Assembly: GCF_007280415.1 (NCBI RefSeq)
Contig: NZ_VKKU01000002.1
Coordinates: forward strand, 1,219,501-1,283,500
Direction: 5' to 3'
Length of the DNA stretch: 64,000 nucleotides
DNA from: Sphingorhabdus contaminans
Lineage (GTDB): Bacteria > Pseudomonadota > Alphaproteobacteria > Sphingomonadales > Sphingomonadaceae
Shown here: positions 16,161 to 27,863 of the stretch, piece after piece
Layout of the letters: every line of letters begins with the position of its first letter
Numbering within the stretch: the first letter of the stretch is position 1
Notes under the pieces: model-generated
The model's database searches: none
The model's input: the letters and a program-made list of their open reading frames with translations, nothing else
What the model was told of the DNA's origin: nothing
Translations under genes and position numbers: made by a program

Positions 16161-16500
16161 AAAGATGTGATCACTCCAAAATGAGGTTGTGCCGCTATTA
16201 ACGAAACCCGCTGTCGCTGTCATGAATGAAATGCATTTCAAATGCTTCAGGCCGGCGTGAAGCAGCCCCGGCAAACTGTTGCATAAATGTTACATGCACC
16301 GATATTTCATGCTGCACGCCAGCAATTTCTTTGCGTGAAAAGTAGATTTAGGTCAAAGCGAGCCCAATCTGGAAGCATTCCGCTTGCCTTGCCGCGTGCC
16401 CGACGTGCGCAAAAAGAGCAGATTTTCCGGAGCATTAACAAGTTTTGCAGGCGCGTCCGAGGCGTCTGCGTGACCCAAATAGCTTATGGAGGGCTATACC
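16161..16500 (+). promoter_or_regulatory. 340-base leader region ahead of the first TonB-dependent receptor
   Basis: No gene is seen in this stretch. Its right two thirds are recognisably the same sequence as the leader of the second receptor (19740-19974). Shared blocks include GTTGCATAAATGTTACA at 16278, an AGCAATTTCTTTG block near 16320, GGTCAAAG, and the identical CTTGCCGCGTGCCCGA. The final shared block is GACCCAAATAGCTTATGGAGGG before the GTG start. The first block contains TGCAT-n9-ATGCA, a candidate operator. A promoter serving the divergent cyclophilin gene must also lie here; exact elements were not identified. Confidence 0.6.
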
Positions 16501-19500
16501 GTGAAAACTACACGTATACACAAATTGAAATATGCCGCAGCGCCGCTTGCGATCGGCCTGGCGTTGATCTCGACGCCGTCATTCGCGCAAGATGCAGCTG
16601 ACGAAGATGAGCCAGCTGGTGAAATCGTTGTTACCGGTTCGCTGATTCAGAACCCCAACCTTGTACAGTCGACTCCGGTCAACGCGACGACCGCAGACGA
16701 AATCGATCTTCTGCAGTCGAACGTTGCTGAAGAAGTCCTGCGCGAGCTGCCTGGCGTCGTCCCCAGCATCGGTTCGGCCGTGAACAACGGTAACGGCGGT
16801 GCGTCCTATGTCGACCTTCGCGGTCTGGGTTCGATCCGTAACATCGTTCTGCTTGACGGCAACCGCATTGCACCTTCGGGTCTTGCAGGTCGCGTCGACT
16901 TGAACAACATCCCACTCGCTCTGGTTGAGCGCGTAGACGCACTGACCGGTGCTGCTGTGACCACCTACGGTGCCGACGCTATTACGGGTGTTGTCAACTT
17001 TGTGACCCGCAAGGATTTTGCAGGCGTTGAAATTTCGGCCGGTACGCAGTTGACCGAAAAGGGCGATGGACACACCGTCCGTATCGACGCGACGGTTGGC
17101 GGAAACTTCGACGATGGTCGTGGGAATGCCGTCCTGTCGATCGGTTACCAGCAGGCTGACCCCATCTATCAGGGCGCCCGCGATTTCTCGCAGGTCCAGA
17201 TCAGCAGCTTCACCGGTGGAGCTGGTGGTTCGGGTACTTCCATTCCTTCGCGCTTTTCGGGCACGCGTCCGCTTGTCGGCGGTACACCTAGCACGTTGCA
17301 GGCCCTGCTTGTTTCTGGCTACTCGACGACTGCAAACCCCAACTACAACCCAGCCAACCCGACCGACTTGGTGCTTGGTATAAACACCCCATTTCTCCCG
17401 ATCTTGGCTGATGCAGGTGGTCTTGCAAACGGAGGCGTTCGCCAGGTTAACGCTGCTGGTCAAGCTGTACCAACATTCCAGACCTTTAACTTTAACCCGT
17501 TCAACGTGTTCCAGACGCCGTTCAAGCGTTTCAACATCTTTGCCCAGGGCAATTATGAAATCTCGGATGCCGTTGAAATCTACACACGTGGTATGTTCTC
17601 GAAGAACACCGTTGATACCATCATCGCACCTTCGGGTTCTTTCGGTGGCACGGTAACAATAAACCTGAACAACCCCTATTTGCCTGCAGCGCTGCGTAAC
17701 CAGTTCTGCGCATTCAATACGGCTCCAGTTGTTTCTGGTGTTAACGCCGCAGGCGTCGCAACGTCAGGTCAAACGACTTACACACCGCGCTTTACGACTG
17801 CTCAATGTGATGCTGCAGCAACTGCGACCGGTCGTTCCGATCCAGCCTATCGTGAAGTCACGGTTACGCTGAACCGTCGTACTTCAGAAGTCGGTCCGCG
17901 TATCTCCAACTATCAGACCACGATTTTCGATTATCGTATCGGTGCTCGTGGCGGTATCACGGACAGCATCGACTGGGACATCAGCGGTGCCTATGGTGAA
18001 TCGGAAAACATCCAGACCATCAAGAACTACACTCTTCAGTCGCGTTTCCGTGAGGCAGCACTGGCAAATAACACAACCACCTGCCAGAGCGGCAATGCGG
18101 CTTGTGTGCCCGTTAACTTGTTCGGACCTGAAGGTTCGATCACGCCTGCGATGGCAGCGTTCTTGACCGCAGACTCCACCACCATTGTTCGGACAACGCT
18201 GGCTCAAGCCCGCGGCACGATCTCGGGTGATGCAGGTTTTGCTTCGCCTTGGGCTGCTGAACAGGTTGGCTTCGCTGTTGGCGCTGAATACCGCAAATAT
18301 GGTGCAAGCCAGGCATCGGATCTGTTGTCGCAGACCCCCGGTGAATTGGGCGGTGCCGGCGGTGCTGCTCCAAATATCGATGGCGGCTATGACGTCTATG
18401 AAGCGTTCGGCGAGATCATCGCTCCGATCGTGGAAGACAAGCCATTGTTCCACAGCCTGACCTTGGAAGCTGGTCTTCGTTATTCGTCGTACAATGTTAC
18501 CGGCGCTGCGCAGCAGAACAAGACCACCACTTGGAAAGCTGGCGGTAGCTGGGAGCCTGTAGAATCGCTAAAGATTCGTGGTAACTACAGCCGTGCTGTT
18601 CGCGCTCCGAACATTGGTGAACTGTTCACGCCGCAAACCGTTGGTCTGACCAACCTTGGCGTTGACCCTTGCGCCGGTGCAGCACCGAATGCCAATGCTA
18701 ACCTTCGTGCTATTTGTTTGGCACAGGGCGCTCCTGCAGGTTCGATCGGTTCGATCACAAATCCAACCGCAGGCCAGGCGAACATCACTGTAGGTGGTAA
18801 CCTGAACTTGGCACCTGAAAAGGCAGATACCTGGACACTTGGATTCGTGTTCCAGCCTGACTTTATTCCAGGCTTCAACGTTTCGCTTGATTACTACAAT
18901 ATCAAGATTAGCAACGTTATCGGAACTGCATTGCCAGCGGATATCATTAACGCTTGCTTCGGAACAGTTACCGCAGCAAGCGCATCGACCGCAGCTTGCA
19001 CCAACATCCGTCGTAACCCCATCACTGGCGGTTTGGACGGTGACCCTGCGACAACCGGTGGTCTGTTCGGTCCCACGAACAACCTTGGCAAGCTTGCAAC
19101 CGATGGTTTCGACCTTCTTGCAAACTGGAAGGGTGACATCGGCTTTGCAGACCTGTCGTTGGCATTTGTTGGAAACTGGACACGTTCGTCCAAGTTCAAC
19201 GCCAACCCGGCTGATCCGACATCGTTGAACCGCGAATGCGTTGGTTACTTCTCGGTCAACTGCTCGTTCACCGGTTCGATCCAGCCTGAATTCCAAACGT
19301 CGACCCGTGCGACCTTTGGCGTTGGTGACGTCGACCTGTCGTTCTTGTGGCGCTGGATCGATGCAGTGGAATATGAGCCTGCCGAAGTTGCAGCAGGTAA
19401 CGGAATTCTTCCGCAATTCCGCAACATCCCTGCCGAACATTATTTCGACCTGACCGCACGTTGGAACGCGAGCGACAACTTCTCGTTCACCTTCACCGTG

Positions 19501-19638
19501 CAGAACCTGTTGGACAACAAGCCGTTCGTCGTGGGTAACACCGCCGGTTCGACTTCGTTCAACAGCGGTAACGTCTTCCCGTCGACTTACGACGCGCTGG
19601 GCCGCCGCTTTGGTGTTGCAGCCAAGTTGACCTTCTAA
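16501..19638 (+). CDS. TonB-dependent receptor, copy A of a tandem pair
   Basis: A 1045-residue outer-membrane active transporter. The signal peptide (KYAAAPLAIGLALISTPSFAQ) is followed by a TonB box-like segment in GEIVVTGSLIQ. The plug domain (about 50-165) includes YVDLRGLGSIRNIVLLDGNR and YGADAITGVVNFVTRKDFAG, and the beta-barrel ends in a terminal Phe (VAAKLTF). There is no N-terminal signalling (STN) domain. The start is GTG 16501: GGAGGG lies 7 bases upstream, and the ATG at 16486 overlaps that Shine-Dalgarno. Codon choice looks more uniform than in copy B, suggesting strong expression. The substrate is unknown. Confidence 0.95.
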   Translation: MKTTRIHKLKYAAAPLAIGLALISTPSFAQDAADEDEPAGEIVVTGSLIQNPNLVQSTPVNATTADEIDLLQSNVAEEVLRELPGVVPSIGSAVNNGNGGASYVDLRGLGSIRNIVLLDGNRIAPSGLAGRVDLNNIPLALVERVDALTGAAVTTYGADAITGVVNFVTRKDFAGVEISAGTQLTEKGDGHTVRIDATVGGNFDDGRGNAVLSIGYQQADPIYQGARDFSQVQISSFTGGAGGSGTSIPSRFSGTRPLVGGTPSTLQALLVSGYSTTANPNYNPANPTDLVLGINTPFLPILADAGGLANGGVRQVNAAGQAVPTFQTFNFNPFNVFQTPFKRFNIFAQGNYEISDAVEIYTRGMFSKNTVDTIIAPSGSFGGTVTINLNNPYLPAALRNQFCAFNTAPVVSGVNAAGVATSGQTTYTPRFTTAQCDAAATATGRSDPAYREVTVTLNRRTSEVGPRISNYQTTIFDYRIGARGGITDSIDWDISGAYGESENIQTIKNYTLQSRFREAALANNTTTCQSGNAACVPVNLFGPEGSITPAMAAFLTADSTTIVRTTLAQARGTISGDAGFASPWAAEQVGFAVGAEYRKYGASQASDLLSQTPGELGGAGGAAPNIDGGYDVYEAFGEIIAPIVEDKPLFHSLTLEAGLRYSSYNVTGAAQQNKTTTWKAGGSWEPVESLKIRGNYSRAVRAPNIGELFTPQTVGLTNLGVDPCAGAAPNANANLRAICLAQGAPAGSIGSITNPTAGQANITVGGNLNLAPEKADTWTLGFVFQPDFIPGFNVSLDYYNIKISNVIGTALPADIINACFGTVTAASASTAACTNIRRNPITGGLDGDPATTGGLFGPTNNLGKLATDGFDLLANWKGDIGFADLSLAFVGNWTRSSKFNANPADPTSLNRECVGYFSVNCSFTGSIQPEFQTSTRATFGVGDVDLSFLWRWIDAVEYEPAEVAAGNGILPQFRNIPAEHYFDLTARWNASDNFSFTFTVQNLLDNKPFVVGNTAGSTSFNSGNVFPSTYDALGRRFGVAAKLTF

Positions 19639-19974
19639 TCCGGTCAACAACCAAGTTTGAAAGGGGGCGGGCAGAAATGTCCGCCCCTTTTTTGTGCTGA
19701 TTTTGGGGCTGACATCGCATCTTGCGCGCAAGAGCCACTGTTGCAGAAATGCTACAGGCTTTGAAATATCCTAACCCAAACAAGCAATTCCTTTGTGTGG
19801 AAAATGGAATTGGGTCAAAGTGACACCGTTCCGGAGGCGTAACCTACGCCTTGCCGCGTGCCCGATGCGTGCAGATTAAGCAGAAGTTCCGGGGCATCAA
19901 CAAGCTTTGCAATTGTAACTCGCAGACGCGTGATGCGCGTTTGCGCGACCCAAAAGCTTATGAAGGGACATATC
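19639..19974 (+). promoter_or_regulatory. Leader region of the second TonB-dependent receptor, containing the first receptor's terminator
   Basis: No gene is seen in these 336 bases. The first part holds the copy A terminator hairpin. From 19740 the sequence is a diverged copy of the leader before copy A: GTTGCAGAAATGCTACAGGC at 19740-19759, then CAAGCAATTCCTTTG, GGGTCAAAG, CCTTGCCGCGTGCCCGA, GGGGCATCAACAAGCTTTGCA and CGACCCAAAAGCTTATGAAGGG. The blocks lie almost the same distance from the start codon (235 versus 223 bases), so both promoters and any operator were duplicated. Each receptor therefore probably has its own promoter. Confidence 0.6.
19664..19693 (+). terminator. Rho-independent terminator after receptor copy A
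   Basis: A 9-bp stem, GGGGCGGGC (19664-19672) with GTCCGCCCC (19679-19687), has a six-base loop and is followed by six T. It stands 25 bases after the copy A stop codon. The equivalent position after copy B has a similar stem but no T-run. Confidence 0.9.
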
Positions 19975-22900
19975 GTGAAAAAGACACGCACCTACAAATT
20001 AAGATATGCAGCAGCTCCGCTTGCTATCGGTCTGGCATTGCTCTCCACACCATCTAACGCACAAGAAGCTAACGCTGAAGACGACAGCGCGGGCGAAATT
20101 GTCGTCACCGGTTCGCTGATACAGAACCCTAACCTTGTCCAGTCAACTCCGGTCAACGCAACGACCGCAGACGAAATTGATCTTTTGCAATCAAATGTTG
20201 CTGAAGAAGTACTGCGCGAACTTCCAGGCGTCGTTCCCAGCATCGGTTCGGCCGTGAATAACGGTAACGGCGGCGCATCCTATGTCGACCTTCGCGGACT
20301 CGGTTCAGTGCGAAACATTGTGTTGCTCGACGGCCAACGGATTGTGCCCGCCGATCTTCAAGGCCGCGTTGACCTGAACAACGTTCCCCTTGCCTTGGTC
20401 GAGCGTGTCGATGCGCTTACCGGCGCTGCCGTGACCACTTATGGCGCGGACGCCATCACGGGTGTTGTCAACTTCATCACCCGCAAGGACTTTGCAGGCG
20501 TCGAAGTTACAGGTGGTGCGCAAATCACCGAAAAGGGGGATGGTCAGACATTCCGCTTAGATGCGACGGTTGGCGGCAATTTCGACGATGGTCGCGGTAA
20601 CGCGGTGCTGTCGATCGGATATCAGCAAGCCGATCCCATTTTCCAGGGCGATCGTGATTTTTCTTTTGAACAGATTAGCAGCTTTTCGGGCGGCGCATCA
20701 GGTTCAGGGACTTCAATCCCTTCGCGCTTTTCCGGTACCCGACCGCTTGTAGGTGGCGCACCAAGCACGCTACAGGAGTTACTTGTTGCTGGCTACTCAA
20801 CGACAGTAAACCCGAACCACGATCCGTCCAAGCCGATTGATTTGGTTCTTGGAGTAAACACCCCGTTTCTGCCTATTTTGCGCGATGCGGGTGGTGTTGC
20901 GAACGGGGGCGTTCGCCAAGTTAATGCAGCAGGTCAAGCGGTTCCAACATTCCAGACCTTTAACTTTAACCCGTTCAACGTTTTTCAGACTCCTTTTGAA
21001 CGCTTCAATATTTTTGCCCAAGCCAATTATGAAATCTCGGATGCAGTTGAAATCTACACCCGTGGCATGTTCTCAAAGAATACCGTTGATACGATCATTG
21101 CACCGTCAGGCTCTTTCGGCGGAACAGTGAAGATAAATCTAAACAATCCCTTCTTGCCAGCAGCGCTGCGTAATCAGTTTTGCGCGTTTAACGTAGCGCC
21201 ATCTGTCAGCGGCCTCGACGCAAATGGCGCATCGCAGGCCGGGCAAACGGGATATATTCCTCTCTTTACGCCAGCCCAATGCGCTGCTGCTGCAACTGCT
21301 ACAGGACGGAGCGATCCGAATTATCGTGAAGTCGAAGTGACGCTGAACCGACGCACGTCGGAAGTAGGACCCCGTATCTCAAACTACCAAACGACCATTT
21401 TTGATTATCGTCTCGGTCTGCGCGGTGCAATTTCGGATAGCATAGACTGGGATATTAGCGGAGCCTATGGCGAGTCTGAAAATGTGCAGGCGATCAAGAA
21501 CTTTACGTTACAGTCGCGCTTCCGCCAAGCCGCGTTGGCTGATAACGCGACATCTTGTCAGAATGCTTCGAATGGTTGTGTTCCAGTCAATCTTTTCGGT
21601 CCGGAAGGCTCCATTACACCTGAAATGGCAGCGTTTTTAACTGCGGATTCTACAACGATCGTTCGCACGACCCTTGCACAAGTCCGTGGTACGGTGAGTG
21701 GTGAAACTGGTCTCGTCCTTCCTTGGGCAGCAGAATCTGTCGGCTTTGCGGTTGGCGGTGAATATCGCGAATATGGTGCTACGCAGGCATCGGATCTTCT
21801 CGCTCAGACTCCTGGCGAACTAGGCGGTGCGGGCGGCGCTGCACCCAATATCGATGGCGGTTATAATGTCTATGAGGCTTTTGGTGAAATCATTGCGCCA
21901 ATCGTGGAAGACAAACCTCTATTTCATAGCCTGACTGTTGAAGCCGGGCTTCGCTATTCTTCATATAAGGTTGCCGGTGCGGTATCGCAGAACCAGACAA
22001 CCACATGGAAAGCGGGCGCGAGTTGGGAGCCTGTCGAATCGCTGAAGTTCCGTGGAAACTACAGCCGCGCTGTTCGAGCGCCTAATATCGGGGAATTGTT
22101 CACGCCGCAAACGGTCGGTTTGACTAACCTTGGTGTGGATCCTTGTGCGGGTAGTGCGCCAACGACCAACGCCAATCTGCGTGCGATCTGTCTGGCCCAA
22201 GGTGCACCTGTTGGAACGATTGGTTCAATCACTAACCCAACCGCGGCACAGGCAAATATAACGGTTGGGGGAAATCTCAATCTCAAGCCTGAAAAAGCCG
22301 ACACATTTACGCTAGGCCTTGTATTTCAACCGGACTTCGTTCCCGGGTTCAATATCTCGCTCGATTATTACAACATCAAGATAGACAGCGTTATTGGCAC
22401 GGCAACACCGGGGGATATTATCGCGGCCTGTTTCGGCAATGTTTCCGCCACCAGCGCCACGAGTGCCGCGTGCACCAATATACGTCGGAACCCAATAACG
22501 GGCGGTTTGGATGGTGATCCGGCTACCACCGGCGGTTTGTTTGGCCTGACCAACAATTTGGGCAAATTGGCGACCGACGGATTTGACCTTCTGGCAAACT
22601 GGAAAGGCAACATTGGATTTGCCGACCTCTCGTTGAGTTTTGTCGGGAACTGGACTCGCTCGTCCAAGTTCAACTCGAATCCTCTGGATCCTAACTCACT
22701 TAACCGGGAATGTGTGGGCTTTTACTCGGTCAACTGCTCATTTACCGGTTCGATACAGCCTGAATTCCAAACATCTACCCGCGCGACTTTCGGCATTGGT
22801 GATGTTGATCTGTCATTTTTGTGGCGTTGGATTGATGCCGTCCAATATGAGCCTGCCCAACTTGAAGCAGAACGCAAAGCTGCAGATGCAGCAAATCGTA

Positions 22901-23235
22901 ACGGCGCAGGTGTGTTATTGCCCGTCGATTTATCGCGGATTGGAAGACCAGGCTTCCAGGGCTGCCCTAACTTTGAAACGACCGATGACGGTGGCTGCTT
23001 GGTCGAAGAAGGATTCCGCCGGATCGGTTCGGAACATTATTTCGACCTGACGGCACGCTGGAATGCAAGCGACAATATGTCGTTCACTTTCACAATCCAG
23101 AATCTGCTGGACAACAAACCTAAGGTCGTAGGCAACACAATCGGATCGACGTCGTTCAACAGCGGTAACGTCTTCCCGTCGACCTATGATGCCTTGGGTC
23201 GCCGTTTCGGGATTGCGGCGAAGCTGACATTCTAA
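19975..23235 (+). CDS. TonB-dependent receptor, copy B of a tandem pair
   Basis: A 1086-residue outer-membrane receptor, near-identical to copy A over most of plug and barrel, with the same terminal AAKLTF. The start is GTG 19975 with AAGGGA 6 bases upstream; the open frame continues to 19858 but lacks a ribosome binding site there. It is 41 residues longer than copy A. A single extracellular-loop region after WIDAVQYEPA accounts for the difference: 58 residues instead of 17 before EHYFDLTARWNASDN. That loop carries CPNFETTDDGGC. Other differences are substitutions, so the copies are otherwise colinear. It precedes the TPR-sulfotransferase. Confidence 0.95.
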   Translation: MKKTRTYKLRYAAAPLAIGLALLSTPSNAQEANAEDDSAGEIVVTGSLIQNPNLVQSTPVNATTADEIDLLQSNVAEEVLRELPGVVPSIGSAVNNGNGGASYVDLRGLGSVRNIVLLDGQRIVPADLQGRVDLNNVPLALVERVDALTGAAVTTYGADAITGVVNFITRKDFAGVEVTGGAQITEKGDGQTFRLDATVGGNFDDGRGNAVLSIGYQQADPIFQGDRDFSFEQISSFSGGASGSGTSIPSRFSGTRPLVGGAPSTLQELLVAGYSTTVNPNHDPSKPIDLVLGVNTPFLPILRDAGGVANGGVRQVNAAGQAVPTFQTFNFNPFNVFQTPFERFNIFAQANYEISDAVEIYTRGMFSKNTVDTIIAPSGSFGGTVKINLNNPFLPAALRNQFCAFNVAPSVSGLDANGASQAGQTGYIPLFTPAQCAAAATATGRSDPNYREVEVTLNRRTSEVGPRISNYQTTIFDYRLGLRGAISDSIDWDISGAYGESENVQAIKNFTLQSRFRQAALADNATSCQNASNGCVPVNLFGPEGSITPEMAAFLTADSTTIVRTTLAQVRGTVSGETGLVLPWAAESVGFAVGGEYREYGATQASDLLAQTPGELGGAGGAAPNIDGGYNVYEAFGEIIAPIVEDKPLFHSLTVEAGLRYSSYKVAGAVSQNQTTTWKAGASWEPVESLKFRGNYSRAVRAPNIGELFTPQTVGLTNLGVDPCAGSAPTTNANLRAICLAQGAPVGTIGSITNPTAAQANITVGGNLNLKPEKADTFTLGLVFQPDFVPGFNISLDYYNIKIDSVIGTATPGDIIAACFGNVSATSATSAACTNIRRNPITGGLDGDPATTGGLFGLTNNLGKLATDGFDLLANWKGNIGFADLSLSFVGNWTRSSKFNSNPLDPNSLNRECVGFYSVNCSFTGSIQPEFQTSTRATFGIGDVDLSFLWRWIDAVQYEPAQLEAERKAADAANRNGAGVLLPVDLSRIGRPGFQGCPNFETTDDGGCLVEEGFRRIGSEHYFDLTARWNASDNMSFTFTIQNLLDNKPKVVGNTIGSTSFNSGNVFPSTYDALGRRFGIAAKLTF

Positions 23236-23257
23236 TTCAATCAGCACGTAAACAAAA

Positions 23258-23285
23258 TAGGGGTGGGCAGCGATGCCCGCCCCTA
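23258..23285 (+). promoter_or_regulatory. Hairpin enclosing the ribosome binding site and start codon of the TPR-sulfotransferase
   Basis: An 11-bp stem, TAGGGGTGGGC (23258-23268) with GCCCGCCCCTA (23275-23285), has the six-base loop AGCGAT. The ATG of the following gene is bases 23273-23275, at the loop/stem junction, and its GGGGTGGG Shine-Dalgarno is in the left arm. It occupies the same place after copy B that the terminator occupies after copy A, but lacks a T-run. It may act as a weak terminator, an mRNA 3'-end stabiliser or a translational control. Confidence 0.65.
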
Positions 23286-24925
23286 CCTTTGCCGGACATC
23301 TACTTGACAATCCGACCCGTGATGCGCCTAGTCCTCCGGTGATTAGCTCAGAACTCGAGGCCGCTGCTGCACTTTCCCAAACGGCTCTGGCCCGCGGAAC
23401 AGGTGATGCATATGACCATGCAATTGTTGCATTGGTGCATTCGGCGCGGGGTGAATTTGATAAGGCGGACGCCTTGTTCCAACGCGCCCTTGCATTGGAA
23501 CCAGGTAATCCATCGACGCTTACCAGTCTTGCTATCCACTACCGCAATCAGGACCGATACCGCGAAGCGGTGCTTGCCTGTGATGAAGCCATTCGCCTCT
23601 ACCCCGAATATGCCGATGCCTGGCTGGAACGCGGTGCAATTCTGGCGGTCGGCGGATCCAGTGAAATTGCCCGGGAAAGCTTTGCGAGAGCGGCGCAACT
23701 GGCTCCGCAAAATCCCGCAGCGCATGCCGGCCTTGCTTCGCTGGCAGCGCGAGAAGGGGACGCTGATCAGGCGCGCGAGCACGCCAATCGTGCATTGGCA
23801 ATCGACCCCACCCATGCGGTTGCCACCAATGCCCTGGCGGGTGCAGAATTACGTTCCGGTGCGCCGGAAAAAGCCCGGCAATTGTTAGAACAACTGCTCC
23901 CTCGGTTGAGTTACCCAAGTCTGGAACGAAGTTTTGCGCATTCGCAAATGGGCGATGTGTGCCATCGGCAATCGGATCATGATGGAGCGTTCCGGCATTT
24001 CTCCGCGTCCAACGCCGATTTCGCAGCTATCCACGAGCATCGAAGTTCAGGTAATTTGGACAATCGGGCATTTGTCGAAGCACTGCTTACCGGTCTTGAT
24101 TCACTTCCCAAAGATGCATGGCTGAAAACGCATGATGACCAGCCCTCCCATGCGGCCCGACGTCATATATTTCTTATCGGCTACCCGCGGTCTGGCACAA
24201 CATTGGTTGAAAATATTCTAGCTTCGATACCTGGCGTTGCAGCGCTTGAAGAGCGTCCGACACTTTACGACGCCGATATCGAATTCATTGCGGGCAACGC
24301 CATACAAATCGCAGAAGGTCTGAAGCGCTTTTCCGAACTGGATGCTGATGAGTTGGCGCGTTACCGAAAGGCTTATTGGGACAAAGTTGTTGCCTCTGCT
24401 GTTCCAGCCGCTTCGCCCTGTTTTGTCGACATGGATCCACTGAAAGCAACGCGATTGCTCTTCATCGCGCGGCTGTTTCCGGAGGCGCGCATTCTGGTCA
24501 TGCGGCGTGATCCGCGCGATGTGGTCTGGAGTTGTTTCCGCACCAATTTTGCCATGAGTAGCGGAACGCTTGAATATACCAGTCTTGAAAGGACGGCGCT
24601 GCATTATGATGCGCTCATGCGCCTTACCGAATTGGCGGTGCAACGCCTCCCACTGCGTGTTCATTATGTCCAATATCACAAATTGGTGCAGGATTTTGAT
24701 GCTGAAACACAAAGAATGTGCGCATTTGCCGGACTTAAATGGACCGAGGCGGTGCGGGAATTTGATCGCACCGCAACCCGCCGCGGGGTGAGCACGGCCA
24801 GTGTGGCGCAAGTCAATCGCGGTCTATATGATGGAACGCGGCAATGGGAACCCTATGCCCGTTATCTGGAGCCCGTAATGCCCATTTTGCAGCCGTGGCT
24901 CGTTAAATTTGGATATGAAAACTAA
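23273..24925 (+). CDS. TPR-containing sulfotransferase
   Basis: A 550-residue cytoplasmic protein. Residues about 45-260 form TPR-like helical repeats (ARGEFDKADALFQRALALEPGNP, YREAVLACDEAIRLYPEYADAW, and others). Residues about 298-540 form a PAPS-dependent sulfotransferase domain. The 5'-phosphosulfate loop is IGYPRSGTTLVENIL (302 onward) and the 3'-phosphate region is VMRRDPRDVVWSCFRTNF. Such TPR-sulfotransferases often stand beside TonB-dependent receptors in sphingomonads, and a protein or peptide acceptor is plausible but unproven. The ATG lies in a hairpin 37 bases after copy B; a GTG at 23339 is an alternative start. The stop overlaps the convergent gene by 4 bases. Confidence 0.9.
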   Translation: MPAPTFAGHLLDNPTRDAPSPPVISSELEAAAALSQTALARGTGDAYDHAIVALVHSARGEFDKADALFQRALALEPGNPSTLTSLAIHYRNQDRYREAVLACDEAIRLYPEYADAWLERGAILAVGGSSEIARESFARAAQLAPQNPAAHAGLASLAAREGDADQAREHANRALAIDPTHAVATNALAGAELRSGAPEKARQLLEQLLPRLSYPSLERSFAHSQMGDVCHRQSDHDGAFRHFSASNADFAAIHEHRSSGNLDNRAFVEALLTGLDSLPKDAWLKTHDDQPSHAARRHIFLIGYPRSGTTLVENILASIPGVAALEERPTLYDADIEFIAGNAIQIAEGLKRFSELDADELARYRKAYWDKVVASAVPAASPCFVDMDPLKATRLLFIARLFPEARILVMRRDPRDVVWSCFRTNFAMSSGTLEYTSLERTALHYDALMRLTELAVQRLPLRVHYVQYHKLVQDFDAETQRMCAFAGLKWTEAVREFDRTATRRGVSTASVAQVNRGLYDGTRQWEPYARYLEPVMPILQPWLVKFGYEN

Positions 24926-25938
24926 ACCAACGGGTAGGGCAGATTAAGGTCAATCCCTGCAGTGCCTGCAACCTGCTCTGCCCATTTTAATATGGTATCG
25001 ATTTCGTCCCCATATGCCACACGCGCGGCGGCATGCTCGGCTTGGCGATCTTCGGTGTTAAACGACCCGCCGAATTTACTGTGTGTTCCGAATGCACGGT
25101 GGTTTGCGATATCGGCTTCATCCACCTGCATACCAAAATGGCGTGCCGCGGCTGATAGGGCCGAATAGGGATCTGCGGTTAATCGTTCACTATCCAGCGT
25201 CGCTATGCGGGTTGGTCCGTATTGATCCGCGAGCTGCCGGAACAGGCGGTGTTGCGCAAGCCAGCCAACGGCGGCCACTTGCAAATCGGACTGCCGGAAA
25301 TAATCGGCAGGTTCAAAGCCCATGTCGACCAAGCCGTCCTTCAATAACCCTTCCAGCAACTCGCGACACCACAGGCGGCACCAAAGGCCTTTGCGGGCAA
25401 CGGAAACAAGGAAGACCGGAAGGGGCGCATAAAGCAAAACGGCATTGCTCGCCGGACGCATTGCAAGGGTCACGGGCATCAAAGCGTTGAACACATTGGA
25501 TGGTTTGACGATGATTGTGCGATCGCTGCCGATTGGGCGGGCCAGCATATGCAGGGCATGATCCAAACGTTCGGCGACGGCGGAAGGAGGCGCTCCACGT
25601 CGGCGATAACCAACAATATCGTTGAGAAGGACAGGCTCCTTCAAACCCATGGACAACCCGGGAAGGTTAAATCCCTTGGCCAAAAGCGTAGACGCACAAA
25701 ATGCCGAATGGACGATGAAGTGCAGACTATTGCTTTTGGATACAACCTGCATTGCATCATGTCGTGGGATCACAACCGGATTGGGTTCTGTGCCTAAATA
25801 GTCATCCGTCAGAAATGTCGCTGAGTCCTGCACTTCGCGCGTCAGATGGCGCAGTTGATAGGCGTCGGCTTCAGCATCAAAACGATGTGCGAGCCATTCG
25901 CCATTGGCCAATATCGGTTCTAACGCGTTGATTGCCAT
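24922..25938 (-). CDS. Sulfotransferase-like P-loop protein
   Basis: A 338-residue protein, probably cytoplasmic. LHFIVHSAFCASTLLAKGF (about 72-90), followed by LKEPVLLNDI, resembles the phosphosulfate-binding loop of a divergent sulfotransferase family with an HxxFCxSTLLA form. A second basic segment is IIVKPSNVFNAL. The assignment rests on these motifs only. ATG 25938 is chosen because the upstream 100 codons are low-quality and overlap the divergent gene. It ends overlapping the TPR-sulfotransferase stop by 4 bases and starts 49 bases from the divergent beta-hydroxylase gene. Confidence 0.65.
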   Translation of the reverse strand: MAINALEPILANGEWLAHRFDAEADAYQLRHLTREVQDSATFLTDDYLGTEPNPVVIPRHDAMQVVSKSNSLHFIVHSAFCASTLLAKGFNLPGLSMGLKEPVLLNDIVGYRRRGAPPSAVAERLDHALHMLARPIGSDRTIIVKPSNVFNALMPVTLAMRPASNAVLLYAPLPVFLVSVARKGLWCRLWCRELLEGLLKDGLVDMGFEPADYFRQSDLQVAAVGWLAQHRLFRQLADQYGPTRIATLDSERLTADPYSALSAAARHFGMQVDEADIANHRAFGTHSKFGGSFNTEDRQAEHAAARVAYGDEIDTILKWAEQVAGTAGIDLNLPYPLV

Positions 25939-25987
25939 GATGCTCGGGACCTTGCCGTTTGTCCCTGTAAATGGCAAGTGGACAACG

Positions 25988-27172
25988 ATGGACCAGAAAA
26001 CACCGCCGGCCGAAGCGGCCCGACTGAATAGCGCAGGGATGCAGGCTCTGCGTGCGCAAAGCTTTGCGGAGGCGGAGCGCCTTTTTGTGGAGGCGGTGAG
26101 CCACGACTCGGCTGCGAGTGCCTTATGGCGCAATGTTGCGGCTGCCCGGCGGGCGCAAGGCAATGATGCCGGCGAACTACAGGCATTGGAAGCTGCGATA
26201 GGCGTTGACCGGTTGGACTTTTTGGCTTGGTTGCGCAAAGCGGAGCTGCATCAGCGGCGATCTGAGGACGCCAAAGCCTTGGAGGCATGGCAGGCCGCGC
26301 TGCAACTGGCTGCGCAAATGGGGGAAGTGCCGCCGGCAGTGGACAATGCCCTGTCGGTCGGCCGCACATTTGTCGCAAATTCGATGGCGCGGATTGCATC
26401 GGCGGTGGAAGCCGAATTGCAGCCGGTTCAACATGCCATGGACGAAACCGAGAAGCGCAGAAGCGGCGCTTTTGTGGATCTCGCACTGGGAAGGCGGCGT
26501 ACTTTTTTCAACCAATGTGAAGGGCTCTACTATCCCTTTCTGCCAGCAGACGAGTTTTTTGACCGGCGTCATTTCACATGGATGCCGGACATAGAGGCCG
26601 CAACCGCAGATATACGGGAAGAGTTATTATCCTTGCTCGCCGATCCGGGGGATGCCCTGCGTCCCTATGTGCGTATGGATAGCGGGATCCCGGACAACAA
26701 ATGGTCTTCGCTGGACCATTCGCTGGATTGGGGTGCCTGCTTTTTATGGGAATATGGCAAGCCGAATCTGCCGGTGCTTGATCGCTGTCCAAAAACCGCA
26801 GCCGCTTTGGCGGCGCTGCCCTCTGCACATATTCCGGGAAGATCGCCCAGCGCTTTTTTCTCGTTACTCAAACCGCATACGCATATTCCTGCGCATACCG
26901 GTGTTACCAATACACGGGCAATCATCCACTTGCCTTTGATCGTGCCTGAGGGTTGCGGATTTCGGGTAGGTGACGAAACGCGGGAATGGCGCGAGGGCGA
27001 GGCCTTTGCCTTTGACGACACGATCGAGCATGAAGCCTGGAACAACAGCGACGATCTGCGTGCAGTGCTCATTTTTGATGTCTGGAACCCGCATTTGACG
27101 GTTGCAGAACAGGAACTGATTATCCGCTATTACACCGCTGCGGACGCGACAGGCCTAAATCCAGCGAATTGA
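25988..27172 (+). CDS. TPR-containing aspartyl/asparaginyl beta-hydroxylase
   Basis: A 394-residue protein. An N-terminal helical TPR-like region (about 10-115, AEAERLFVEAVSHDSAASALWRN) is followed by a linker. The C-terminal AspH-type Fe(II)/2-oxoglutarate dioxygenase domain (about 175-385) shows His303 in PAHTGVTNTRAIIHLPL, His348 in DDTIEHEAWNNSD and Arg359, which fit the iron- and 2-oxoglutarate-binding residues. Family members hydroxylate Asp or Asn side chains of proteins or peptides. ATG 25988 (MDQKTPPAEA) is chosen; the upstream frame lies in the divergent gene. It probably acts with the nearby sulfotransferases on a shared substrate, which is inference. Confidence 0.88.
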   Translation: MDQKTPPAEAARLNSAGMQALRAQSFAEAERLFVEAVSHDSAASALWRNVAAARRAQGNDAGELQALEAAIGVDRLDFLAWLRKAELHQRRSEDAKALEAWQAALQLAAQMGEVPPAVDNALSVGRTFVANSMARIASAVEAELQPVQHAMDETEKRRSGAFVDLALGRRRTFFNQCEGLYYPFLPADEFFDRRHFTWMPDIEAATADIREELLSLLADPGDALRPYVRMDSGIPDNKWSSLDHSLDWGACFLWEYGKPNLPVLDRCPKTAAALAALPSAHIPGRSPSAFFSLLKPHTHIPAHTGVTNTRAIIHLPLIVPEGCGFRVGDETREWREGEAFAFDDTIEHEAWNNSDDLRAVLIFDVWNPHLTVAEQELIIRYYTAADATGLNPAN

Positions 27173-27267
27173 TACCGATTGCATTCGACGAACGACGCCT
27201 TCCTGCGATTGCGACCGCATTATTTGCATGATACACCTGTAGAATAATTACACCCAAGGAATCTCTC

Positions 27268-27549
27268 ATGCGTCACATTTTCTTTGCTCTTGCTTTTACC
27301 ACGTCACTGTCGGTGTCGCCGGTTTTTGCCAACAATGAAGCTGCCAAAAACACGACCACGGCGACTGATCCGGACCAGGTTATTCGCTGTCGTAAAGTTG
27401 AAGTGACGGGTTCGCTGGTCAAGAAGGGCAAGGTTTGCAAGACGATTGCCGAGTGGAAGCAAATCCAGTCCAATGGCAACCGTACCGCACGCGCTATCGC
27501 GGAAAGCGGCAATGTCTGTGCAGGCGGGGCCTGCGGTAACGGCAATTAA
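27268..27549 (+). CDS. Small secreted four-cysteine protein, paralogue 1
   Basis: A 93-residue precursor: a signal peptide (MRHIFFALAFTTSLSVSPVFA), then a mature peptide of about 72 residues. Its core is DPDQVIRCRKVEVTGSLV, KKGKVCKTIAEWKQIQ and NGNRTARAI, ending NVCAGGACGNGN. Cysteines are at 41, 57, 84 and 89, enough for two disulfides in the periplasm or outside. GAATCTC upstream is a weak ribosome site. The next gene, 2 bases downstream, encodes a paralogue with the same cysteine spacing. Similar small proteins of unknown function occur in sphingomonads. No receptor, toxin or enzyme motif is visible. Confidence 0.8.
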   Translation: MRHIFFALAFTTSLSVSPVFANNEAAKNTTTATDPDQVIRCRKVEVTGSLVKKGKVCKTIAEWKQIQSNGNRTARAIAESGNVCAGGACGNGN

Positions 27550-27551
27550 AT

Positions 27552-27863
27552 ATGGCTGAGGGGGCTACGCTTCGCGTTGCCTTAATCGTCTGGATAGCGG
27601 CATTTTCTGTCGCTTCAGCACCTGTCGCTGCGCAAGTTGCGCCGCCGCCAGTCTCTGTTCCTGAAGATCCGGACCAGCAGATTAAATGCAAGAAATTTGC
27701 GGCCGTCGGTTCGATAATCCGCAAAATCAAGGTCTGCAAAACCCTTGCGGAATGGCGGCGCGCGCAACAGGCGGGAAATGACGCTGCGCGTGCAATTGTC
27801 GGCGAGAATGTCTGTTCGGGCGGCGAATGCCGGGGATATGAACCTCCGGATGCGCCGCCCTGA
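27552..27863 (+). CDS. Small secreted four-cysteine protein, paralogue 2
   Basis: A 103-residue precursor: signal peptide (VALIVWIAAFSVASAPVAAQ), a Pro-rich spacer (VAPPPVSVPE), then the same core as its neighbour: DPDQQIKCKKF...VGS, KIKVCKTLAEWRRAQ, GNDAARAI, NVCSGGECRG. Cysteines are at 46, 62, 88 and 93. The intervals are 16, 26 and 5, against 16, 27 and 5 in paralogue 1. The C-terminus GYEPPDAPP has the only Tyr of the mature part. It is almost certainly co-transcribed with paralogue 1 and ends 20 bases from the convergent clpB stop. Confidence 0.78.
   Translation: MAEGATLRVALIVWIAAFSVASAPVAAQVAPPPVSVPEDPDQQIKCKKFAAVGSIIRKIKVCKTLAEWRRAQQAGNDAARAIVGENVCSGGECRGYEPPDAPP

Follow-up and report, generated by a model that had tools for sequence, protein, structure and literature searches.

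The Locus and Its Genes

The stretch of Sphingorhabdus contaminans DNA analysed here (64,000 nucleotides, referred to as the window) carries at 16486-27863 seven genes for TonB-dependent receptors (TBDTs), candidate modifying enzymes, and small secreted proteins, and this gene set is a conserved sphingomonad module. The order is TBDT 1 (+), TBDT 2 (+), a sulfotransferase fused to tetratricopeptide repeats (TPR-sulfotransferase, +), an orphan P-loop protein (−), a TPR hydroxylase (+), and two miniproteins (+); all seven genes which a reading of the sequence alone had placed at 16501..27863 are present. Directly beyond the miniproteins, on the opposite strand, lies a gene named by eye as clpB. 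The host genome (3.29 Mb, two contigs) holds several copies of some of these families, with 7 PF13469 places and 3 hydroxylase places.

The TonB-Dependent Receptors

The first receptor (16486..19638, + strand) consists of a plug (PF07715) and a barrel (PF00593) and begins with the N-terminal sequence EIVVTGSLIQNPNL. The second (19960..23235, + strand; open frame from 19858, likely start 19960) is its tandem paralogue. The two proteins are 86% identical across residues 1-970, the DNA upstream of the first (16275-16449) is repeated with 72% identity before the second (19737-19911), and the two nearest relative loci, L133 and L135, possess a single TBDT; judged by these similarities, the pair is a tandem duplication. 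An insertion with two cysteines near the C-terminal end of TBDT 2, GCPNFETTDDGGC, was seen by eye to be absent from TBDT 1. TBDTs of all kinds are abundant in the genomes studied, with 12 to 116 loose candidates per genome among the matches listed.

The TPR-Fused Enzymes

The product of 23273..24925 (+ strand) combines TPRs with a sulfotransferase domain (PF13469, E 6.4e-32 in Pfam). At E ≤0.001 the sulfotransferase half matched among solved chains only tyrosylprotein sulfotransferases (TPSTs; 7 sequences, best E 8.8e-11), and its loops PRSGTTL and RDPRD...S for 3'-phosphoadenosine 5'-phosphosulfate were aligned to those of TPSTs; the TPR half resembles designed TPRs and O-GlcNAc transferase. 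Most likely the protein is tyrosylprotein sulfotransferase-like, with protein-tyrosine sulfation as its putative activity.

The hydroxylase gene (25988..27172, + strand; open frame from 25904) encodes a PF05118 oxygenase (E 5.5e-42 in Pfam), whose nearest solved relative is human ASPH (E 1.3e-27), with the HTG and DD..EHE.W motifs aligned; HTG is present in 97 and DD[ST]..EH in 110 of the 121 family members. Over residues 50-142 it resembles an engineered TPR chain (E 5e-18), the TPR signal in Pfam being marginal (E 0.085). The protein is most likely an ASPH-type enzyme with an N-terminal TPR domain and putative Asp/Asn protein hydroxylation activity. The earlier statement that both TPR proteins fuse a TPR region to a modifying enzyme is thus borne out by PF13469 and PF05118, and the catalytic halves of both are nearest to protein modifiers among solved structures.

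The Orphan P-Loop Protein

Between these two genes a protein of 338 amino acids is encoded on the minus strand (24922..25938). The open reading frame originally listed is over-long; since relatives match from about residue 104 and a start codon is found at residue 101, the gene is placed at about 24922-25938, which leaves its start (25938) 49 bases away from that of the hydroxylase gene (25988). Neither Pfam nor NCBIfam matches the protein at E up to 0.1, and among solved chains its best sequence match is not significant (E 0.26). Its structure model (predicted local distance difference test score, pLDDT, 91.9) has TPST2 as the best fold match in the PDB (E 9.5e-5, probability 1.00, TM 0.48 and 0.53, root-mean-square deviation 8.1), and the top matches, TPST2 and the curacin sulfotransferase, superpose with deviations of 8-12 over about 315 columns. 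A sulfotransferase fold is thereby predicted, in agreement with the former description of a second sulfotransferase-like P-loop protein, although recognised families in Pfam or NCBIfam do not include it.

The motif H-S-[AG]-[FY]-C-x-S-T is kept in 84 of 85 close members, and the conserved S179 is preceded by an invariant A171-P172. In canonical sulfotransferases an arginine binds the 3'-phosphate, and a single sub-threshold profile alignment sets the alanine of this family opposite that arginine. An alignment scan of 84,980 species genomes gave 292 relatives, and the titles of the best 80 of these 292 belong mostly to Sphingomonadales groups, some naming the class or phylum only and one Kordiimonas marina (Kordiimonadales); when 289 genomes were sampled evenly across the class, matches at 1e-15 occurred in only two family members. 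The host genome itself holds a diverged P-loop paralogue near a miniprotein, with two open frames between them (L108:9217-11913; G000:C1 ~484,000-487,000), and no TBDT was labelled within 20 kb of it.

The Secreted Miniproteins

Miniprotein 1 (27268..27549, + strand) has a signal peptide by eye, a hairpin motif followed by a helix, and an extra C-terminal CAGGAC; miniprotein 2 (27552..27863, + strand) is its paralogue by sequence comparison. Neither has a Pfam match; for miniprotein 1 the only NCBIfam match was PuuR (E 0.078), the PHROGs search gave only phrog_22439 (E 0.0074), and the best PDB match in the fold search was at E 2.0.

The core is mostly C-x5-[TI]-G-S-x7-C-x-T-x2-[EQ]-W, and in 56 members its positions are conserved as follows: C 56, G 56, S 52, C 56, T 55, and W 55. 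The core lacks a conserved tyrosine, and the acidic Asp/Asn stretch differs between members. In the model (mean pLDDT 68, core blocks 82-88) a hairpin with TGS at its turn precedes a helix; Cys41 and Cys57 are predicted to face each other, which may be read as a disulfide. The hairpin is positively charged (net +3.4 on average, n=128). Both window members have four cysteines, as previously described, but this is not a property that defines the family: among 131 miniproteins exactly two cysteines after residue 25 are found in 94 and four or more in 28. In these cysteine counts and the mean charge, as in the hydroxylase and P-loop motif counts above and the segment comparison below, three pieces of DNA that were fetched twice (L074/L148, L079/L177, and L082/L170) are counted double.

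A third miniprotein of the host genome (L105:9799-10095; G000:C2:753822) is 67% identical to miniprotein 1, and no other gene of the module was labelled within 20 kb of it. The class sample added miniproteins from 6 genomes, which carry three other family codes. Eight loci from other families (L222-L229) have no labelled enzymes and no TBDT, and in a Pfam scan seven long neighbours from five of them were not TBDTs; in L222-L230, which belong to other alphaproteobacterial families and to genome G014, the miniprotein relatives often form tandem pairs and likewise stand apart from labelled TBDTs and enzymes. By sequence, then, the miniproteins appear to be a wider secreted family.

The receptor start (IVVTGSLI, within 16486-16700) and the miniprotein core (VTGSLV, within 27268-27863) have a short segment in common. 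When the TBDT segment VTG[ST](L/R) was set against the miniprotein segment GS(L/R) in 92 loci, a miniprotein with R was found in 9 of the 15 loci with a TBDT R and in none of the other 77 (76 with TBDT L and one with TBDT I; Fisher 6e-9). The matching is contradicted by L115 and L126, and L077 and L162 have a second, different receptor as their nearest TBDT. A receptor tree of 90 rows, from which L162 and the supportive L207 were omitted as too short, gives 3-4 independent pairs, with which a sign test cannot reach significance; the covariation is retained as a lead only, because it is confounded by phylogeny.

Conservation of the Gene Set

Each protein was searched against 149 genomes of the family, of which 148 remain when the host genome is left out. 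The searches score the best few matches per genome (5 TBDT, 9 TPR-sulfotransferase, at most 12 hydroxylase, and at most 11 P-loop), and the counts are lower bounds. The linkage test at 10 kb takes uniform placement on 3.3 Mb as its expectation, ignores genome relatedness, and omits host-genome rows, two antisense P-loop fragments, a second fragment of one TBDT, and hydroxylase rows that score worse than about 1e-38. By this test 79 miniprotein matches included 25 within 10 kb of a P-loop gene (expected 0.28), 21 within 10 kb of a hydroxylase (0.52), 26 of a close TBDT (0.26), and 9 of a TPR-sulfotransferase (0.12), and 41 had no partner in the linkage tables. At least one partner was found for 31 of 37 close TBDTs, 28 of 32 close P-loop genes, 24 of 33 close hydroxylases, and 14 of 25 TPR-sulfotransferases.

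At the level of whole genomes, with no adjustment for relatedness, the pairings most clearly above expectation are TBDT with hydroxylase (23 of the 148 versus 6.9 expected), TBDT with P-loop (24 versus 7.1), hydroxylase with P-loop (25 versus 6.7), and TBDT with miniprotein (28 versus 13.6). The excess is weaker for hydroxylase with miniprotein (19 versus 12.8, p 0.01) and for P-loop with TPR-sulfotransferase (8 versus 4.3, p 0.04); the pair of miniprotein and TPR-sulfotransferase was not significant in these genomes (12 versus 8.2, p 0.06).

From the best 80 P-loop relatives 60 loci of at least 18 kb each were taken as a P-loop-anchored set, and in these the hydroxylase is present in 59 (58 after overlap resolution), the miniprotein in 58, the TBDT in 57, the TPR-sulfotransferase in 12, and clpB in 38. 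Single-linkage clustering by shared flank genes divides them into seven groups of 44, 5, 3, 3, 3, 1, and 1 loci, and five of the seven contain the hydroxylase, P-loop, miniprotein, and TBDT genes all together. A further secreted family of about 180 amino acids, 'c4' (L109:3371-3928 and others; weak VasI match, E 0.0032), occurs in 26 of the 60 loci and was not labelled in the module of the window.

Co-occurrence beyond chance, the test set beforehand for the cassette that the sequence-only reading had proposed, was thus obtained by linkage, at genome level, and across flank groups. It could still be argued that these genes have no joint function and have been kept by common descent in one slot near clpB and xseA-M23-purD, in line with the single flank group that holds 44 of the 60 P-loop loci and with the recurrence of the slot in many hydroxylase loci (clpB in 18 of 31). 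Such an explanation is very improbable, since four further flank groups keep the hydroxylase, P-loop, miniprotein, and TBDT genes together, genome-level co-occurrence persists where linkage is broken, and combinations of the same enzyme kinds recur.

Variants of the Locus

The 31 hydroxylase-anchored loci are those of the 33 closest matches that do not lie on short contigs, and most frames in the locus maps are unannotated. The 31 loci include a TBDT in 25 and a miniprotein in 17 (16 and the later found L093); ten have a TBDT with no miniprotein found, and two have the miniprotein only. Another 20 loci, anchored on miniproteins, were hand-picked, for the most part in genomes that lack close hydroxylase or P-loop matches; 14 of them have a TBDT, none a hydroxylase, 2 a P-loop gene, 2 a TPR-sulfotransferase, and 5 a gene labelled TPR2OG. 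TBDT and miniprotein stand together with none of the four labelled enzyme kinds in L115 and L122-L126. In 15 stretches without the slot (4 paralogue loci of the host genome and 11 miniprotein loci elsewhere, which are not a random sample) no labelled TBDT was present.

The enzymes are variable as well. L235 is composed of TBDT, TPR-sulfotransferase, hydroxylase, and TPR2OG genes, with no miniprotein found. A TPR protein with a PF13759 oxygenase domain (one member scanned) lies beside the TBDT in L109-L114, L120, L121, L127, and L235, and a methyltransferase is added at L111. Outside the order, in L205 of Kordiimonas marina (Kordiimonadales), a P-loop gene stands beside a TBDT with the same GSLIRNPNL motif, and the hydroxylase and miniprotein were not found in this locus. 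Because enzymes and TBDT occur without the miniprotein, and miniprotein and TBDT without the enzymes, the receptor looks like the hub of the module, accompanied by a variable set of modifying enzymes.

Proposed Function and Its Alternatives

The interpretation that we prefer, tentatively and at somewhat less than even probability, is that the enzymes hydroxylate (at Asp/Asn) and sulfate, in the cytosol, a protein which the locus exports, most probably the receptor, and that the miniprotein is a partner of this receptor. The module would be centred on one outer-membrane TBDT. The hydroxylase, the TPR-sulfotransferase, and the P-loop protein appear to be cytosolic; because no export signal was seen in them by eye, they would encounter any protein target in the cytosol, prior to Sec export. 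The enzymes may recognise the substrate via TPRs or a surface and then hydroxylate and sulfate it before export, and the TPR regions in three enzyme kinds would fit polypeptide recognition. A protein substrate is favoured because the catalytic halves are nearest to ASPH and TPST and the P-loop fold is nearest to TPST2. The likeliest target would be the receptor encoded at the locus, followed by the miniprotein and, in third place, a lipid or small molecule; the exported miniprotein, with its predicted disulfide hairpin, may serve as a periplasmic or surface partner of the receptor.

Several observations weigh against this interpretation. No receptor tyrosine site was seen to track the sulfotransferases when acidic-tyrosine sites were compared by eye, and TBDT and TPR-sulfotransferase do not co-occur significantly across the 148 genomes (6 versus 4.5, p 0.27). 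Four of the 31 hydroxylase loci have neither TBDT nor miniprotein, and Blastomonas-type loci, four of them distinct (L073, L074 = L148, L149, and L150), hold the miniprotein, hydroxylase, and P-loop genes with no TBDT in 20 kb; this group lies near an RND pump gene (PF00873 in L074 = L148), and genomes G001 and G095 have a close TBDT elsewhere in the genome. The catalysis of the P-loop family is uncertain, because an invariant alanine appears to occupy the canonical position of the 3'-phosphate arginine. The top NCBIfam models for the hydroxylase are the lipid hydroxylases OlsC (91 bits) and LpxO (45 bits), both far under their cut-offs. Finally, common descent of one chromosomal slot inflates the counts and explains part, not all, of the association.

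The Blastomonas-type loci suit another explanation, possible though on the whole doubtful, in which the miniprotein is itself the substrate: it would be hydroxylated or sulfated before export, while still in the cytosol, and the adjacent receptor would then take it up or sense it as a ligand, metallophore, or signal. It is consistent with the miniprotein in 58 of the 60 P-loop loci, with the pairing of a P-loop paralogue and a miniprotein apart from any TBDT at L108 of the host genome, and with methanobactin operons, which according to PMC3621798 likewise contain a precursor peptide, in some cases with a sulfotransferase and in some with a TonB-dependent transporter. The distribution of the genes argues otherwise: miniproteins occur with a TBDT in the absence of labelled enzymes (L115, L122-L126) and in other families with neither, 10 of the 31 hydroxylase loci have a TBDT with no miniprotein found, and the core offers no conserved tyrosine and a varying acidic Asp/Asn stretch. 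The sequence-only suggestion that the miniproteins may be the substrates is thus not supported in the specific form of four-cysteine substrates.

It is unlikely that the substrate of the enzymes is not a protein and is instead some small molecule, lipid, or peptide which the receptor handles, such as an outer-membrane lipid or metallophore. PF05118 does take in lipid hydroxylases, as the matched OlsC and LpxO models illustrate, and sulfotransferase folds serve many small acceptors (curacin, Teg, and StaL are in the fold list of the P-loop protein); yet by sequence the solved proteins closest to either TPR enzyme, in its catalytic half, are protein modifiers, and the inspected recurrent neighbours are housekeeping genes or further modifiers, the other frames of the maps, which may include biosynthetic genes, being unannotated. 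As for the uptake of a modified compound, it is the receptor family that would suggest it.

Modification of an exported protein, the preferred interpretation, can be carried further to a quite improbable form, in which TPR-guided enzymes would decorate the receptor with lineage-variable hydroxyl and sulfate groups and so change what binds to it (nutrient, bacteriocin, or phage), and the miniprotein, through its receptor-like VTGS[L/R], would tune TonB docking or gating. In this form the enzymes would be convergent with those of hydroxylation and tyrosine sulfation in the animal secretory pathway.

Relation to Known Systems

Human ASPH has a TPR region ahead of its oxygenase domain, as the window hydroxylase does, and acts on folded EGF domains in the endoplasmic reticulum. 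The window enzyme is likewise a PF05118 oxygenase with the same HTG and DD..EHE.W motifs; unlike ASPH it is bacterial, and no membrane anchor or export signal was seen in it by eye. The solved TPSTs (TPST1/2 and a tick TPST) are similarly related to the module, since the sulfotransferase half matches all 7 sequences and a TPST is the best fold match of the P-loop protein. In contrast to them, one window protein is fused to TPRs, and the P-loop protein has neither a significant sequence match nor the usual 3'-phosphate arginine.

Methanobactin operons encode a small ribosomal peptide (MbnA) and in some cases a sulfotransferase (MbnS) and a TonB-dependent transporter (PMC3621798). The window also combines a TonB-dependent transporter, a sulfotransferase, and a small peptide, and this is a resemblance of parts only: no MbnB/MbnC-type family was recognised among the seven window proteins in Pfam and NCBIfam scans, the miniprotein carries, as judged by eye, a Sec-type signal and is predicted to have a folded core, and the hydroxylase belongs to another family. 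Xanthomonas RaxST reportedly sulfates the exported small protein RaxX, which may be an analogy for a bacterial sulfotransferase paired with an exported small protein, and we know of no TonB-dependent receptor or hydroxylase partner in that system. A putative type I system is named in the title of PMC4216712.

In the main text of a top-down proteomic study of the Novosphingobium aromaticivorans periplasm (PMC3608174) no word that starts with 'hydroxyl' or 'sulfat' occurs. No title describing the gene set was found in a literature search outside which most subscription papers and all preprints lay. The module accordingly consists of known enzyme kinds in a conserved combination that is undescribed as far as the literature was searched, and it includes the orphan sulfotransferase-fold family and a miniprotein family without annotation.

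Significance

The module makes the function of the unannotated sulfotransferase-fold and miniprotein families testable. If the proposed function is true, bacteria use ASPH- and TPST-like enzymes to attach hydroxyl and sulfate groups to outer-membrane receptors of their own or to a partner miniprotein, and both TonB-dependent uptake and the surface visible to phages and bacteriocins would thereby come under a new level of control.

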